This document shows, in pieces, positions 10,809-19,557 of a stretch of 64,000 nucleotides of DNA. Location of the stretch: assembly GCF_004799325.1 (NCBI RefSeq), contig NZ_SSMD01000001.1:620001-684000 (forward strand). Direction: 5' to 3'. The stretch comes from Thalassobius vesicularis. GTDB taxonomy: Bacteria > Pseudomonadota > Alphaproteobacteria > Rhodobacterales > Rhodobacteraceae. The position numbers and the translations under genes were made by a program. A model generated the notes under the pieces. It did no database searches, was not told the DNA's origin, and was given only the letters and a program-made list of their open reading frames with translations. Numbering within the stretch: position 1 is the first letter of the stretch; each line of letters starts with the position of its first letter.

Positions 10809-11638
10809 TCCAGGATCACTTTCCGTACAGTTTCGTCCACTTCGGGGCGCTGGCCGAACCAACGCTCAAAGCCCGGAACGGCCTGATAAATCAGCATTCC
10901 CAGCCCGTCCACGGTGTGGCAGCCGATCTCCTCGGCGACTTGCAGAAGGTGGGTTTTCAGCGGGGTGTAGACGATGTCGGTGACAACGGCCTGTTTTTGC
11001 AGACCGTCGAGGGGGATGCGCAGCTCGGGTTTGCCGGTCATGCCAAGGGCGGTGGTGTTCACGACCAATGCGGCGTCCTCTAGCGCGTTGCCGGCCTGCA
11101 CCCAGTCGACGACCTGAATGCGGGTGCCAAATTCGTGGTGCAGCGCATCGGCGCGCAGGCGGGTACGGTTGGACAACATGATCTCGGGCACGCCGGCATG
11201 CAGCAGAGAGGCAAGGATCGCGCGCGAGGCACCGCCGGCACCCAGAACCATCGCGGGACCGGCCTTGGGATCCCAGTCCGGCGCGCCCTGACGGAGGTTT
11301 TCGATAAACCCATACCCATCGGTATTGTCGGCGTAGATCTTGCCGTCTTCGCGGAAAGTCAGCGTGTTCGCCGCCCCGATCAACGTCGCGCGGTCCGAGG
11401 CGACGTCGGCGATTTCCAGCGCGGCCTCTTTATGGGGGACGGTGACGTTGGCGCCGACGAAACCGACCTTGGGCAGGGTGCGCAGCACGGTTTCCAGATC
11501 GTCGGGCGCGACATCCATCGGGACATAGAAGCCCGGCAGCCCGTATTTCCGCAACCAATGGCCATGCAGACGCGGCGATTTGGAATGCGCGACGGGGTGG
11601 CCAATCACACCAGCCAGGGGAATACGCGGCGAACTCAT
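10805..11638 (-). CDS. aroE: Shikimate dehydrogenase
   Basis: 277 residues. The substrate site motif is HPVAHSKSPRLHG, with serines for shikimate, and the catalytic lysine is in VTVPHKEAALE. The NADP-binding loop is VLGAGGASRAILASL. It reduces 3-dehydroshikimate in aromatic amino-acid synthesis. It overlaps maf and coaE by four bases on either side. The length is that of the AroE family proper. Confidence 0.96.
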   Translation of the reverse strand: MSSPRIPLAGVIGHPVAHSKSPRLHGHWLRKYGLPGFYVPMDVAPDDLETVLRTLPKVGFVGANVTVPHKEAALEIADVASDRATLIGAANTLTFREDGKIYADNTDGYGFIENLRQGAPDWDPKAGPAMVLGAGGASRAILASLLHAGVPEIMLSNRTRLRADALHHEFGTRIQVVDWVQAGNALEDAALVVNTTALGMTGKPELRIPLDGLQKQAVVTDIVYTPLKTHLLQVAEEIGCHTVDGLGMLIYQAVPGFERWFGQRPEVDETVRKVILE

Positions 11639-12234
11639 GCTTGCAAATCTCCACGCACGGTCAGGTAATTCAACAACTCAATCAGGGGCAGGCCCAGCAC
11701 GTTAAAGTAATCGCCATCGACCCGGGAAAACAAGCGGATGCCTTCTTCTTCCAGCTTATAGGCCCCGACGCAGTAAGAGATGCCGGGCCAGTTGCGATCC
11801 AGGTAACCGTCCAGGAACGCGTCTGAAAACTCGCGCATTTGCAGGCGAACCTGCCCGACATGGCGCCAGATCGGTTTGCCGTTCTCGCAGAGCACCGCAG
11901 CTGACAGCAGCATGTGCCGCTGGCCGCGCATCGCCAGCAGCTGGGCGCGGGCATCATCGCGGTCGCGCGGTTTCGACAGAACCTGGCCGCCCAGGTCCAG
12001 CACCTGATCGCAACCCAGAACCAAGCGGTCCGGCGTGCGTTCGCTGATCTTCAGCGCCTTCATCTCGGCCAGGGTATCGGCGATATCGCGGGGGGTCGCT
12101 TGTTCCGCCTGCAAGGCGTCGCGGACCATCTCTTCGTCGATTCGCGGCTTGGCGATTTCAAAGGGAACCCCGGCGTTGCGCAGCAGTTGCTGCCGGATTT
12201 CGGACCCTGACGCCAGGATCAGCGGATGCGACAT
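11635..12234 (-). CDS. Maf family nucleotide pyrophosphatase
   Basis: 199 residues. It begins LILASGSEIRQQLL, the Maf signature, and has LGCDQVLDL and a C-terminal segment GLPLIELLNYL. Maf proteins hydrolyse non-canonical or methylated nucleoside triphosphates. The expected SPR of the motif ASxSPRR is SEIR here, as in the alphaproteobacterial subgroup. It is the first gene leftward from the proposed origin; the start codon is overlapped by a perfect DnaA box at 12234-12242. Confidence 0.92.
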   Translation of the reverse strand: MSHPLILASGSEIRQQLLRNAGVPFEIAKPRIDEEMVRDALQAEQATPRDIADTLAEMKALKISERTPDRLVLGCDQVLDLGGQVLSKPRDRDDARAQLLAMRGQRHMLLSAAVLCENGKPIWRHVGQVRLQMREFSDAFLDGYLDRNWPGISYCVGAYKLEEEGIRLFSRVDGDYFNVLGLPLIELLNYLTVRGDLQA

Positions 12235-12242
12235 GTGGATAA
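12234..12242 (-). promoter_or_regulatory. Perfect DnaA box
   Basis: TGTGGATAA, the reverse complement of TTATCCACA. The first base overlaps the maf start codon, so DnaA bound here would also touch maf transcription. Confidence 0.75.
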
Positions 12243-12692
12243 CCTCGTGGAAGACGTTAGGAACTTCTTAAGGAAGGATTGGGTACAAGTCATGGGGGAA
12301 CGGGCCGTTCACGGATTTCCACGATTTTCGGGGACGGCTTTCGCAGGTTTTCCCCATGCGGAAAAGGAAAAGCCCCGGTTTGGGGATAAACGGACCTGTG
12401 CACAGTTCATACAGAAGTCATCCACAGGGTGGAATCCATTTTTCGTTTATCAAGACATTGAAATTGCTCGGTCTTTCTTTGGTTTTTCTGCAGGCGCAAA
12501 AAGTTTTCCCCAGACAGAACCGTTTTGCCCGGGCTTATGGGAAACCCCTTGGGATAACTCAATAATCCACGGAAAATCGCCTCCCATAATCATCATCATC
12601 CTTTCTTTTCTTTATATTTATTTAAGAGGAGAAGGGCCTAACCCTCCGGGGAATTGACTCGGGGGGTCTGGGGCCGTATCTAACCCGGCAAG

Positions 12693-12706
12693 CCCCCGTC
12701 CGGGGG
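12693..12706 (+). promoter_or_regulatory. GC-rich hairpin in the rho leader
   Basis: CCCCCG pairs with CGGGGG across a very short loop, about 62 bases before the rho start. It lacks a T run, so it is not a normal terminator. It may structure the rho leader, since rho genes are commonly autoregulated through their leaders; this is inference only. Confidence 0.35.
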
Positions 12707-12767
12707 AACTGTACTTCCACATAGAAGAATGAATGCCAGTCCCACGGGGCTGACAGAGGTATATTCC

Positions 12768-14039
12768 ATGACCGAGCAACGCTTGAACCTGTCCGATCTC
12801 AAGGCCAAGAGCCCCAAAGACCTGTTGGCCATGGCCGAGGAGCTGGAGATCGAGAACGCCTCGACCATGCGCAAGGGCGAGATGATGTTCCAGATCCTGC
12901 GCGAGATGGCGGACGAAGGTTGGGTCATCGGTGGCGACGGCGTGCTGGAAGTGCTGCAGGACGGTTTCGGGTTCCTGCGCTCGCCCGAAGCGAACTATCT
13001 GCCCGGTCCCGATGACATCTACGTGTCGCCCGACATGATCCGCCAACACTCGCTGCGGACCGGGGACACCATCGAAGGCGTGATGAAAGCGCCGGAAGAG
13101 AATGAGCGGTACTTTGCGCTGACCGAGGTGACCTCGATCAACTTTGAGAACCCGGAACGTGCGCGCCACAAGATCGCGTTCGACAACCTGACGCCGCTGT
13201 ACCCCGACGAACGCCTGAAGATGGAGATCGAGGACCCGACGATCAAGGATCGCTCGGCCCGGATCATCGACCTGGTGGCCCCGATCGGGAAAGGCCAGCG
13301 TGCGCTGATCGTGGCGCCGCCGCGGACGGGTAAGACGGTGCTGCTGCAGAACATCGCGCACTCGATCGAAACCAACCACCCGGAATGCTATCTGATCGTC
13401 CTGCTGATCGACGAACGCCCCGAAGAGGTGACGGACATGCAGCGCTCGGTGAAGGGCGAGGTCGTGTCCTCGACCTTCGACGAACCGGCGACGCGCCACG
13501 TGGCCGTGTCCGAAATGGTCATCGAAAAGGCCAAGCGTCTGGTCGAGCATAAACGAGATGTTGTGATCCTTCTCGACTCGATCACAAGACTTGGTAGGGC
13601 GTTCAACACTGTTGTGCCGTCGTCGGGTAAGGTTCTGACCGGTGGTGTGGACGCGAACGCGCTGCAACGGCCCAAGCGGTTCTTTGGTGCGGCCCGGAAT
13701 ATCGAGGAGGGCGGCTCGCTGACCATCATCGCGACGGCGCTGATCGACACGGGTTCGCGGATGGACGAAGTGATCTTTGAAGAATTCAAAGGCACCGGTA
13801 ACAGCGAGATCGTTCTGGATCGCAAGGTCGCGGACAAGCGCGTCTTCCCGGCGATGGACATCCTCAAATCCGGCACCCGGAAAGAGGACCTGCTGGTGGA
13901 CTCGAAAGACCTGCAGAAGACCTTTGTCCTGCGCCGCATCCTGAACCCGATGGGGACCACGGACGCGATCGAGTTCCTGATCTCGAAACTGAAGCAAACC
14001 AAGACGAACGGCGAATTCTTCGACTCGATGAACGCCTAA
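12768..14039 (+). CDS. rho: Transcription termination factor Rho
   Basis: 423 residues from ATG 12768 ([10 protein letters not shown]), with AGAGG upstream; a longer in-frame start at 12729 has no support. The N-terminal Rho and cold-shock-like RNA-binding regions include [20 protein letters not shown]. The ATPase core has Walker [12 protein letters not shown] and Walker [17 protein letters not shown]. Rho is a hexameric RNA-translocating ATPase that ends untranslated transcripts. It opens the rightward origin-side run. A long gap with structure lies upstream, so its promoter is probably in the oriC-like region. Confidence 0.97.
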
Positions 14040-14063
14040 ACGGGCGACCAGAGGACCGGAAAG

Positions 14064-15350
14064 ATGGACACGATTTTCGCCCTTGCCACGGCCCACGGCA
14101 AGGCCGGGGTCGCGGTAATCCGCGTTTCCGGGCCGTCGGCGCATGCCGCGTGCAAGGCGTTGTGCGGGGATATTCCGCAGCCGCGCAAAGCCAGCCTTCG
14201 CCTGCTGAAAGATCAGGACGGCGTGCGTCTGGACGAGGCACTGGTACTGACCTTCGCGGATCGGCATAGCTTTACCGGCGAGGAAGTGGTCGAGTTTCAG
14301 CTGCACGGCAGTACTGCCGTTGTCGCGGCTGTTCTGCGTGTTCTGGGATCGCTGGAGGGGCTTCGGCAGGCGGAACCGGGGGAATTTACCCGGCGCGCGC
14401 TGGAAAACGGCCGGCTTGATCTGGCCCAGGTCGAAGGGCTGGCCGACTTGATCGAGGCCGAGACCGAGGCGCAACGGCGTCAGGCCCTGCGGGTTTTGTC
14501 CGGGGATCTGGGAAAACGGGCCGAGCAATGGCGGCGCGATCTGATCCGTGCGGCGGCGCTGTTGGAGGCCACGATTGATTTCGCGGATGAGGAAGTGCCC
14601 ACGGATGTCTCGCCCGAAGTGACCGAGTTGGTGGACCGGACGGTGGACAGCCTGCAACGCGAAGTCGATGGCACCAAGGCCGCCGAACGGGTGCGCACGG
14701 GTTTCGAGGTCGCCATTGTTGGCGCGCCGAATGTCGGGAAGTCGACGCTGCTGAACGCCCTGGCGGGGCGCGAGGCAGCGATCACCTCGGAATATGCGGG
14801 CACGACGCGTGATGTGATCGAGGTTCGGATGGACCTGGGCGGTTTGCCGGTGACCTTGCTGGATACCGCCGGGCTGCGCGAAACGCAGGATAAGATCGAG
14901 GAAATCGGGATTGCACGGGCACGTCAGCGCGCCTCGCTTGCGGATCTGCGGGTGTTTCTGATCGAAGGCGGGCAGCATCCGGACTTTGCGCCTGAGCCCG
15001 AAGATATCGTCCTGCGCGCCAAGGCGGACACGCTGGAGGACAAGGGCGACGCGATCTCGGGACTGAGTGGCGAGGGTGTTACGAATCTGATAGAACGGAT
15101 CACTCAGGTGCTGGTGGGGCGTGCCTCGAATATCGGGGTGGCCACGCGGGAGCGGCACAGGCTAGCGATGCAGCGGGCGGTTCAAAACCTGCAAGTCGCG
15201 CGGGAATATGTTTTGATCGGCGAAAACGTCACCGATTTGGCGGCCGAAGAAGTTCGTAGTGCGATCCGCGCCCTGGATTCCCTGGTCGGTCGCATCGATG
15301 TCGAAAACGTGCTGGACGAGATTTTCGCCAGCTTCTGTCTTGGGAAGTGA
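14064..15350 (+). CDS. mnmE: tRNA modification GTPase MnmE
   Basis: 428 residues. The N-terminal tetrahydrofolate-binding domain is followed by a helical domain that carries an inserted G domain at about residues 215-370. G motifs are [12 protein letters not shown] and LLDTAGLRE. The protein ends CLGK, the C-(I/L/V)-GK tail typical of the family. With MnmG it makes the 5-carboxymethylaminomethyl group on wobble uridine 34. It lies 24 bp after rho and directly precedes mnmG. Confidence 0.97.
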
Positions 15351-15354
15351 GGAG

Positions 15355-15370
15355 TGTTTCACGTGAAACA
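15355..15370. promoter_or_regulatory. Perfect parS centromere site in the mnmG start region
   Basis: TGTTTCACGTGAAACA, a perfect 16-base palindrome identical to the general ParB-binding consensus. The GTG of its central CACGTG is the probable mnmG start codon (15363). It is about 2.5 kb from parA and 2.6 kb from the origin candidate. Confidence 0.92.
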
Positions 15371-17231: not shown

Positions 17232-17836
17232 ACGAATTGCCCATCAATGTTTCACGTGAAACATTAGAGCGGCTGGAGCATTACGCCGACCTGCTGCGCA
17301 AGTGGAATCCGCGGATCAACCTGGTGGCAAAGTCCACGCTGCCCGAGCTGTGGACGCGCCACTTCGTCGATTCTGCGCAGGTTTACTCGCTCGCGCCCGA
17401 TGGGTTTGGTCATTGGGTCGATCTTGGCAGCGGTGGGGGGTTCCCCGGCTTGGTCTGCGCGATCATCGGGGCCGAGAAAAACCCCGATGCACGGTTCACG
17501 TTGGTCGAAAGCGATTCCCGCAAGTCGGTTTTCCTGCGCACCGTCGCGCGAGAGCTTTCGATCCAGACCGAGGTGATTTGCGATCGAATCGAACGGGTTG
17601 ACCCACTGCAGGCCGATGTTCTGTCTGCCCGGGCCTTGGCCGACCTCGACACGTTGCTGGGCTTTGCTGCACAGCATTTGAAAGAATCCGGCGTCGCTTT
17701 GCTGCCAAAAGGCGTCAACTGGGAAAAAGAGCGCCTTGCGGCCGAAGCTTCGTGGTTTTTCAACTGCGAACCCACTAATAGTGGAACGGAATCAGGGGCC
17801 GTTATTCTGAAAATCGGAGGTATTTCCCGTGTCTGA
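17228..17836 (+). CDS. rsmG: 16S rRNA (guanine527-N7)-methyltransferase RsmG (GidB)
   Basis: 202 residues from a TTG start at 17228, with AGGAG eight bases upstream. The SAM-binding motif I is [15 protein letters not shown], followed by the acidic loop [18 protein letters not shown]. It methylates N7 of G527 in 16S rRNA. The first codons (NVSRET) lie in the second perfect parS. The 3' end overlaps parA by eight bases. Confidence 0.95.
17248..17263. promoter_or_regulatory. Perfect parS centromere site within rsmG
   Basis: TGTTTCACGTGAAACA, extended to an 18-base palindrome by an A at 17247 and a T at 17264. It encodes NVSRET of RsmG. It is 1.9 kb from the first perfect site and about 0.6 kb before parA. 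Confidence 0.93.
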
Positions 17837-18638
17837 TCCGACTCGTCCGCTTGGGCCGAAAATCATCGCGGTCGCCAACCAAAAAGGCGGCGTGGGCAAA
17901 ACCACGACCACGATCAACCTGGGCGCCGCGCTGGCTGCCGAGGGGTGCCGCGTTCTGATCGTCGATCTGGATCCGCAGGGGAACGCCTCGACCGGGCTGG
18001 GGATCGAGCCCGAAGACCGCGAATACACGACCTACGAACTGCTGCTGGACGATGTCGGGCTGGATGAGGTCATTCAGAACACGAATTTCCCCGGAATCGA
18101 CATCATTCCTGCCACCGTTGATCTGTCCTCGGCGGATATCGAGCTGATCTCGAACGAAAAGCGGAGCTTTCTGCTGCATGACGCCCTGCGTCAACATGCG
18201 ATGGACGAGCGCGCCTACGATTATATCCTGATCGACTGCCCGCCGTCGCTGAACCTGCTGACGGTCAACGCGATGGTCTCGGCGCATTCCGTACTGGTTC
18301 CGCTGCAGTCGGAATTCTTTGCGCTGGAGGGCCTTTCGCAGCTGATGCTGACCATCCGTGAGGTGCGCCAATCGGCAAATCCGAACCTGCGGATCGAAGG
18401 TGTTGTGTTGACCATGTATGACGCACGCAACAACTTGTCCCAGCAGGTCGAATCCGACGCCCGTACGAACCTGGGTGAGCTGGTTTTTGAAACCGTCATT
18501 CCGCGCAATGTTCGCGTGTCCGAAGCGCCGTCATATGCGATGCCCGTGTTGGAGTATGATCCGGCTTCGAAGGGGGCGCAGGCCTATATCGCCCTTGCGC
18601 GCGAGCTTATGAACAAGAACGTCCGCGCAGCGGCATAA
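17829..18638 (+). CDS. parA: Chromosome-partitioning ATPase ParA
   Basis: 269 residues from a GTG start that overlaps rsmG by eight bases. The deviant Walker A is NQKGGVGKTTTTINLG, including the first lysine K19, and Walker B-like sequences are VLIVDLDPQGNASTG and LIDCPPSLN. This is the MinD/ParA class without an N-terminal DNA-binding domain, as in chromosomal ParA. It binds nucleoid DNA and drives parS-ParB movement. parB follows 16 bp downstream. Confidence 0.97.
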   Translation: MSDPTRPLGPKIIAVANQKGGVGKTTTTINLGAALAAEGCRVLIVDLDPQGNASTGLGIEPEDREYTTYELLLDDVGLDEVIQNTNFPGIDIIPATVDLSSADIELISNEKRSFLLHDALRQHAMDERAYDYILIDCPPSLNLLTVNAMVSAHSVLVPLQSEFFALEGLSQLMLTIREVRQSANPNLRIEGVVLTMYDARNNLSQQVESDARTNLGELVFETVIPRNVRVSEAPSYAMPVLEYDPASKGAQAYIALARELMNKNVRAAA

Positions 18639-18654
18639 CCACCCGGAGGCAAGA

Positions 18655-19557
18655 ATGAGCGAAAAAAGAATGAAGCCCCGCGGCTTGGGCCGTGGCCTGT
18701 CTGCGCTGATGGCGGATGTTTCGGCAGCGGAAACCCGGACGGATGGCGCGACCCCGCGACGCCCGGATATGTCGATTCCGGTCGAAAAGATTTTCCCGAA
18801 CCCCGACCAGCCGCGCCGCACCTTTACGCCGGATCAGCTGCAGGAGCTTTCCGCTTCGATCAAGGAAAAGGGGATCATCCAGCCGCTGATCGTGCGCGAA
18901 CGGCCGGGTCGTGCGGGTGAATACGAAATTGTCGCCGGTGAACGCCGCTGGCGCGCCGCGCAGATGGCGCAGTTGCACATGATTCCGGTTCTGGTGCGCG
19001 ACTTTGACGATGTCGAAGTGCTGGAAGTTGCAATCATCGAGAACATCCAGCGCGCGGATCTGAACGCGGTGGAAGAGGCCGCAGGTTACCGCCAGCTGAT
19101 GGAAAAATTCGGCCACACGCAGGAAAAACTGTCGGAAGTGCTGGGCAAAAGCCGCAGTTACATCGCGAACCTGGTGCGTTTGCTGAACCTGCCCGACGAA
19201 GTGCAGGACTATGTCCGCGAAGGAAAGCTGTCCGCGGGTCACGCGCGTGCGCTGATCACGTCGGATGACCCGGTCGCGCTGGCGCGGCGGGTTATAACGG
19301 GCAATCTGTCGGTGCGCGAGACCGAAAAGCTGGCCAAGGGTGATGTCCCCCGTACCCCCTCGGCCCCGAAATCTGCGCCGCGTGTGGTGGAAAAGGACGC
19401 CGACACCCGTGCGCTAGAGGGGGATTTGTCGGCAAACCTGGGCATGAAGGTTACGATTGACCACACTGCGGGCCAGGAGTCGGGCAAAATTACCGTCAGC
19501 TACAACAATCTGGAGCAGCTGGACGAGATTTGCCGGTTGCTGTCCTCTACGAACTAG
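18655..19557 (+). CDS. parB: Chromosome-partitioning protein ParB
   Basis: 300 residues. It begins with the KPRGLGRGLSALM sequence, then the CTP-binding ParB/Srx domain, with NPDQPRRTF and GERRWRAAQMAQL. A helix-turn-helix follows (LSEVLGKSRSYIANLVRLLNLP). The C-terminal part, rich in small residues then ending in a dimerization domain, is normal. It binds parS and spreads as a CTP-dependent clamp. GGAGG precedes the ATG. Its end overlaps the convergent DUF454 gene by 11 bases. Confidence 0.97.
   Translation: MSEKRMKPRGLGRGLSALMADVSAAETRTDGATPRRPDMSIPVEKIFPNPDQPRRTFTPDQLQELSASIKEKGIIQPLIVRERPGRAGEYEIVAGERRWRAAQMAQLHMIPVLVRDFDDVEVLEVAIIENIQRADLNAVEEAAGYRQLMEKFGHTQEKLSEVLGKSRSYIANLVRLLNLPDEVQDYVREGKLSAGHARALITSDDPVALARRVITGNLSVRETEKLAKGDVPRTPSAPKSAPRVVEKDADTRALEGDLSANLGMKVTIDHTAGQESGKITVSYNNLEQLDEICRLLSSTN

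Follow-up and report, generated by a model that had tools for sequence, protein, structure and literature searches.

Origins of the hemE/DUF299 type in Alphaproteobacteria are set in a recognizable order of outer genes, with secB, dnaQ, coaE, aroE and maf on one side and rho, mnmE, mnmG, rsmG, parA and parB on the other. In the Escherichia coli oriC, DnaA boxes lie to one side of an AT-rich unwinding element, and in the basal unwinding system a box is followed by a short GC-rich block and then by an AT-rich element with DnaA-trios. The Cori of Caulobacter crescentus is located between hemE and a COG1806/DUF299 gene (PMC1914354). Within the Rhodobacteraceae, as far as the accessible text of the reports goes, oriC was predicted with Ori-Finder for 101 of 109 members and curated by skew and parAB (PMC6699656), and the origin regions of Rhodobacter sphaeroides were located by cumulative skew and checked with OriFinder (PMC6315104).

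The locus described here lies in a 64-kb window, the whole stretch of DNA that was analysed (C1:620001-684000), on the 760-kb contig C1 of a 3.79-Mb draft genome in 46 contigs. We consider it highly probable, judging from DNA sequence, that the gap between maf and rho is the DnaA-dependent oriC of the main chromosome. The gap measures 533 bp and separates maf (11635..12234, minus strand, start at 12234; PF02545) from rho (12768..14039, plus strand, start at 12768; PF07497, PF07498, PF00006). The predicted oriC-bearing intergenic region thus extends over 12234..12767, with a conserved core at about 12232-12633. Outward from it are secB, dnaQ, coaE, aroE and maf on one side and rho, mnmE, mnmG, rsmG, parA and parB on the other, nine of them named by profile and two, secB and dnaQ, by eye from ORFs. 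An earlier note on this DNA had claimed a 533-bp gap between diverging operons in a gene order of the alphaproteobacterial origin type, and both claims hold: the outer genes are those of the hemE/DUF299-type origin. The hemE and ppsR (COG1806/DUF299) flanks are absent at the window origin, which is flanked by maf and rho, and the single hemE and hemJ matches of the genome are on C9 and C4, respectively. The closest named relative by Maf, among the matches listed (from which the genome's own records may be missing), is Thalassovita litoralis, with 82% identity over 199 residues.

The parA and parB genes occupy 17829..19557 on the plus strand (PF13614; PF02195, PF17762). As had been proposed, two parS sites are found 2.6 and 4.5 kb away, measured from the start of rho. 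Both are exact copies of TGTTTCACGTGAAACA, one at 15355..15370 in the 5' end of mnmG (gidA) and one at 17248..17263 in the 5' end of rsmG (gidB). They are the only exact copies in the whole genome. parS and parAB, whose proximity is a criterion for oriC, are thus both near the gap. Two more sites with two mismatches are present in C1, at 622.8 and 651.5 kb; only the exact pair was counted, because the pattern read backwards, as a control, yields two sites at two mismatches as well. Both exact sites are contained in the first dozen codons of their genes, mnmG and rsmG, and are therefore also coding sequence.

Three DnaA boxes were found in the gap by sequence scan, one perfect and two with a single mismatch, at the places predicted for them. 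Box 1 (TGTGGATAA on the forward strand, equivalent to TTATCCACA; 12234-12242, minus strand) is the perfect one. It abuts the start codon of maf, in the place expected for that gene's ribosome-binding site, and its first base is the complement of the A of that codon. Box 2 (TGGGGATAA, 12381-12389, minus strand) is 147 bp past box 1, and box 3 (TCATCCACA, 12418-12426) is on the plus strand. Contig C1 contains 58 boxes at ≤1 mismatch in 760 kb, from which 0.041 are expected per 533 bp. The Poisson probability of three or more in 533 bp is about 1e-5, and about 0.016 such tiles are expected in C1. The maf/rho gap is the sole C1 site with three boxes (≤1 mismatch) inside 550 bp, and the cluster exceeds chance, as is looked for in an oriC. 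Outside C1, perfect boxes were scanned genome-wide and boxes at ≤1 mismatch in four stretches, of which one, C2:269216-269376, likewise contains three.

The arrangement was compared in 81 loci, namely the window and 80 named loci, the best 80 of at least 490 related stretches in an alignment scan of genome contigs with Maf. This selection favours close relatives, and counts over the 81 loci are not independent because the sample leans to Ruegeria, Shimia and Sulfitobacter. All counts out of 81 given here refer to this set. On average 3.17 boxes fall in the 450 bp from maf; the corresponding figure is 0.13 for first-order shuffles and 0.098 for 518 kb of sequence taken from the maf side of these loci. 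A box (≤1 mismatch) is placed exactly at the maf start in 75/81, perfect in 31; in L139, L154 and L198 that start is extrapolated and is not an ATG. Counted from the maf start, a plus-strand box recurs at +170 to +195 in 58/81 (shuffle rate 0.005) and another box at +295 to +334 in 44/81. A minus-strand box where box 2 lies (+140 to +154) is present in only 10/81.

In 70 of these 81 loci (best 80 of at least 490, plus the window) hemJ lies between the gap and rho. It is absent in 10, including the window, and the remaining locus is on a contig that stops short of rho. Spacing between maf and hemJ is tightly kept: of the 71 loci with hemJ, which have a median of 405 bp, 69 fall at 384-426 bp. 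Among the 10 hemJ-less loci the maf-start box is found in all, the +170 to +195 box in four and the +295 to +334 box in five. The minus-strand box at the place of box 2 occurs in four of the 10, compared with 6 of the 71 others.

Weaker repeats, which had also been claimed, are present and fall on conserved columns. GGGATAA (12551-12557) and TAATCCACG (12563-12571) together form a region of weak sites (12551..12571) that adjoins the predicted unwinding element and matches the family consensus GgatAa...a.TAATCCACaG. A conserved block at 12353..12373, with the family consensus CCa...gGGa.aaGGAtAAct, may be a further weak DnaA site; it is degenerate in the window, reading GGAAAAGGAAAAG at 12360-12372. 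Boxes 2 and 3 and the site beside the unwinding element are also poorer than the family consensus.

An AT-rich stretch had been noticed at 12575-12632. Stability calculations bear it out: no other 50-bp stretch of the window is as unstable as 12584-12633 (-55.9 kcal/mol, against a mean of -78.6 with an sd of 4.3), which also ranks in the lowest 0.01% of C1. The predicted DNA unwinding element (12583..12633) consists of CCCATAATCATCATCATCC followed by a T-rich tract to TTTATATTTATTTA (12611-12624). By computed stability, then, the box cluster has beside it the easily melted AT-rich element that marks an oriC. A second AT-rich zone (12431..12480) ranks fifth among the least stable 50-bp stretches of the window. 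Two AT-rich zones recur in the 81 loci (best 80 of at least 490, plus the window), one around +202 to +246 and the other around +352 to +381, and in 60 of these loci TAATCCAC immediately precedes the unwinding element.

The consensus for IHF binding is WATCAANNNNTTR. A candidate site, TATCAAGACATTG (12448..12460, plus strand), matches it perfectly in the middle AT-rich zone; because perfect matches are found in 11 of the 81 loci, compared with 2.3 in shuffles, IHF binding at this zone is no more than a suggestion. No full CtrA site (TTAA-N7-TTAA), as a CtrA-controlled origin would carry, was found in 12150-12850. Such sites are present in 9 of the 81 loci against 1.3 in shuffles, and some relatives may therefore have them. 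No clear DnaA-trio run was seen by eye in the window. Runs of three or more trios are present in 36 of the 81 loci against 5.8 in shuffles, a comparison in which shuffling breaks up the T-rich tract.

This anatomy fits standard DnaA initiation, with a strong box at the maf end, middle boxes, a bendable AT-rich zone and weak boxes by the putative unwinding element at the rho end. DnaA would occupy box 1, at the maf start, together with box 2 about 147 bp and box 3 about 184 bp further on. Bending of the AT-rich middle zone, perhaps by IHF, would bring these boxes closer to the weak sites at 12551-12571. The assembled DnaA would then melt the adjacent element (12583-12633), where the helicase would be loaded. 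Forks would leave both ways, roughly along the diverging maf-aroE-coaE-dnaQ and rho-mnmE-mnmG-rsmG-parAB genes, and ParB on the two nearby parS sites would then segregate the copied origins.

It had been suggested that the locus is a variant origin because hemE is missing. We surveyed gene order upstream of rho in 42 genomes, 40 family genomes taken from those with the least similar Rho (a sample from which G019, G021, G030, G119 and G131 were left out) together with G093 and G101; contig ends shorten the stretches of G061, G095 and G146. The order maf-[gap]-hemJ-rho was the commonest (22/42), and maf-ppsR-[gap]-hemJ-rho and maf-[gap]-rho were each found in four genomes and maf-[gap]-hemE-hemJ-rho in two. 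The order ppsR-[gap]-hemE-hemJ was found in three, complete in G054, with rho not detected in G004 and with the stretch ending before maf in G101. Seven of the 42 had no assignable gap: G146 and G095 are cut by contig ends, and G033, G090, G083, G059 and G085 have neither maf nor ppsR inside 4.6 kb, either because the neighbourhood differs or because the search missed these genes. Boxes (≤1 mismatch) were found in 33 of the 35 assignable gaps, whether the right neighbour was hemE, hemJ or rho; the gaps of G058 and G111 have no box at ≤1 mismatch. The box layout of these deep members differs from that of the 81 loci.

Gene order in the family thus grades from maf-ppsR-[ori]-hemE-hemJ-rho into maf-[ori]-rho, and this series across 42 genomes indicates that the box-bearing gap keeps its place while ppsR, hemE and hemJ go. 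Together with the presence of hemE and hemJ elsewhere in the window genome, it explains the missing hemE. The absence of hemE noted earlier is real but not special to the window, since hemE is absent from the origin side at most family loci in which the order was resolved. The peculiarity of the window lineage itself is the missing hemJ. On a Maf and Rho tree of 79 rows, built by a quick method with L132 and L188 (no rho on contig) left out, the window and Thalassovita litoralis form a supported pair. The hemJ-less state requires five changes on this tree, three of them forced by well-supported branches; the tree cannot separate gain from loss, and loss of hemJ is the simpler reading because of the wider neighbour series.

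One could go further and see the origin as the fixed point of a dissolving gene cluster. ppsR, hemE and hemJ would have left it (hemJ at least three and probably about five times), the core and first box would have stayed, and the box would have come to occupy the ribosome-binding region of maf, giving DnaA bound at the origin direct control of that gene. The box found in that region in 75 of the 81 loci (best 80 of at least 490, plus the window), including all 10 without hemJ, is the basis for this proposal. We regard it as tentative and rather unlikely, because only about half of the loci without hemJ have the other boxes in their usual places.

The earlier note had also predicted a GC-skew minimum at the gap, and in this respect the contig disappoints. 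Nearly all of C1 was scanned, with raw and with gene-direction-corrected skew, and no minimum was found at the gap. In 10-kb bins, the left 80 kb has six of eight bins positive, one zero and one negative, and the right 80 kb has eight of eight positive, somewhat higher than the left; the cumulative skew of C1 is lowest near 290 and 370 kb. A change-point step in the corrected skew at the gap is weak over 100 kb (F 4.8) and absent over 150 kb (F 0.2) and 260 kb (F 1.0), and there are better change points elsewhere in C1. The own-contig test thus fails or is uninformative, and own-genome skew was rejected as proof of the origin. The likeliest reason for the absent minimum would be a rearranged chromosome. 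A misjoin at the gap is unlikely because BLAST matches to G055 are collinear across it, from about 594 to 696 kb of C1; in the comparison with G045, collinearity is lost to the left as well as to the right of it. As a separate observation, the sign of the C1 skew flips many times along the 760 kb, which may mean many inversions or translocations.

Skew was also compared in relatives. In the seven single-contig genomes among 149 family genomes, 74 of 90 stretches, which within one genome are not independent, have the expected sign, the maf side being negative in 36/46 and the rho side positive in 38/44. G045 and G055 contribute 20 stretches each to this count and 10 each to a matched set of ten per genome, in which the maf side is negative in 27/35 and the rho side positive in 29/35. 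The skew is clear in G003 and G045 and weak in G093 and G101. In relatives, then, the sign tends to switch at the maf/rho or maf/hemJ junction. The proposal of an origin at the maf/rho gap is supported by this tendency, by the recurring box positions and by the maf-hemJ distance.

Could the gap be simply a divergent promoter region, in which DnaA bound to the boxes acts as a transcription factor on maf and rho, with the origin lying elsewhere? A likely rho promoter, TTGACT-N17-TATCTA, was recognized by eye at 12654..12682 (plus strand; TTGACTC is conserved), and both the position of box 1 on the maf start codon and the own-contig skew without a minimum at the gap would agree with such a view. 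We nevertheless hold it to be very unlikely. The recurring box spacing, the least stable DNA of the window and a maf-hemJ length constrained to about 405 bp exceed the needs of two promoters. The gap is box-bearing in 33/35 cases with hemE, hemJ or rho as right neighbour, even though deep layouts differ, and the skew of relatives switches at it. A consensus promoter scanner listed no promoter. Between the likely promoter and the rho start there is a GC-rich inverted repeat, CCCCCGTCCGGGGG (12693-12706), whose core is retained in three close relatives aligned and which is possibly a rho leader element.

The maf-start box by itself might alternatively be a translation or mRNA signal of maf and no DnaA site, which would still be compatible with an origin in the rest of the gap. 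Its recurrence at the ribosome-binding place in 75 of the 81 loci (best 80 of at least 490, plus the window) would suit such a role, but the boxes near +180 and +310 and the AT-rich elements would be left unexplained, and no Rfam family was matched at gathering scores in 11600-14200. We find this highly improbable, and a DnaA site at the maf start remains our reading.

That the true origin is another box cluster, such as the three boxes in about 160 bp before yebC (C2:269216-269376; two perfect and convergent, one with a mismatch), is extremely unlikely, as the convergent perfect pair is found in 2/149 family genomes and not in the same-genus G076, the contig has no parS, and no origin neighbours were recognized by eye among ORFs over 7 kb. 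The places near dnaA and hemE named earlier as possible rivals were checked for boxes and neither is supported. There is no box at ≤1 mismatch in 10 kb around dnaA (C4:95-105 kb), and 20 kb around hemE (C9:76-96 kb) contain no cluster and four scattered boxes, one of which precedes hemE by about 250 bp. Convergent perfect box pairs, a pattern seen in these 2/149 genomes, are themselves worth recording. They lie at C2:269216-269260 (L046:9216-9260), near yebC, and at C6:254004-254056 (L047:14004-14056), after trpB (both genes by eye), with 27 and 35 bp between boxes, and could be DnaA-regulated promoters or sites of DnaA titration or reactivation.

Preferring the maf/rho gap as the probable oriC has practical consequences. 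It offers base-level candidates for boxes, bend zone and unwinding element in a family whose origins, in the accessible literature, rest mainly on prediction. The DnaA box on the maf start codon could serve as an anchor for origins in draft Rhodobacteraceae genomes with scrambled GC skew. Conversely, adjacency to hemE is an unsafe origin marker in Rhodobacteraceae. We found no description of the maf/hemJ box layout in the open literature searched (main texts, without supplements), including the accessible portions of PMC6699656, PMC6315104, PMC7901474, PMC4285127, PMC8287927, PMC10225481, PMC1914354 and PMC2877005.

Several known systems resemble the locus to different degrees. With the basal unwinding system it shares the succession of box, short GC-rich block and AT-rich element, and it differs in having no clear trio run by eye in the window (accessible text of PMC8287927). 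As in the E. coli oriC, boxes stand to one side of an AT-rich unwinding element and IHF bending may take part, whereas gene neighbourhood and box layout are different (accessible text of PMC4285127). The Ori-Finder origins of Rhodobacteraceae are from the same family and were recognized by DnaA boxes, skew and parAB proximity; the likeness is one of criteria, the accessible text being compared without flanking genes, box layout or coordinates (PMC6699656). Caulobacter Cori differs in that the window locus lacks ppsR, hemE and hemJ and has no full CtrA site in 12150-12850. DnaA boxes, an AT-rich element and a possible IHF site are common to both, and the inner neighbourhood ppsR-gap-hemE-hemJ is present in the deep members G101, G004 and G054. 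The gene-order series of the family leads to the very hemE/DUF299 arrangement reported for Cori in the accessible text (PMC1914354). The gap is thus very probably an alphaproteobacterial oriC of a known kind, in a lineage without hemJ at the origin, and very probably an ordinary bacterial origin, notable mainly for having stayed put while the genes next to it were lost or moved.
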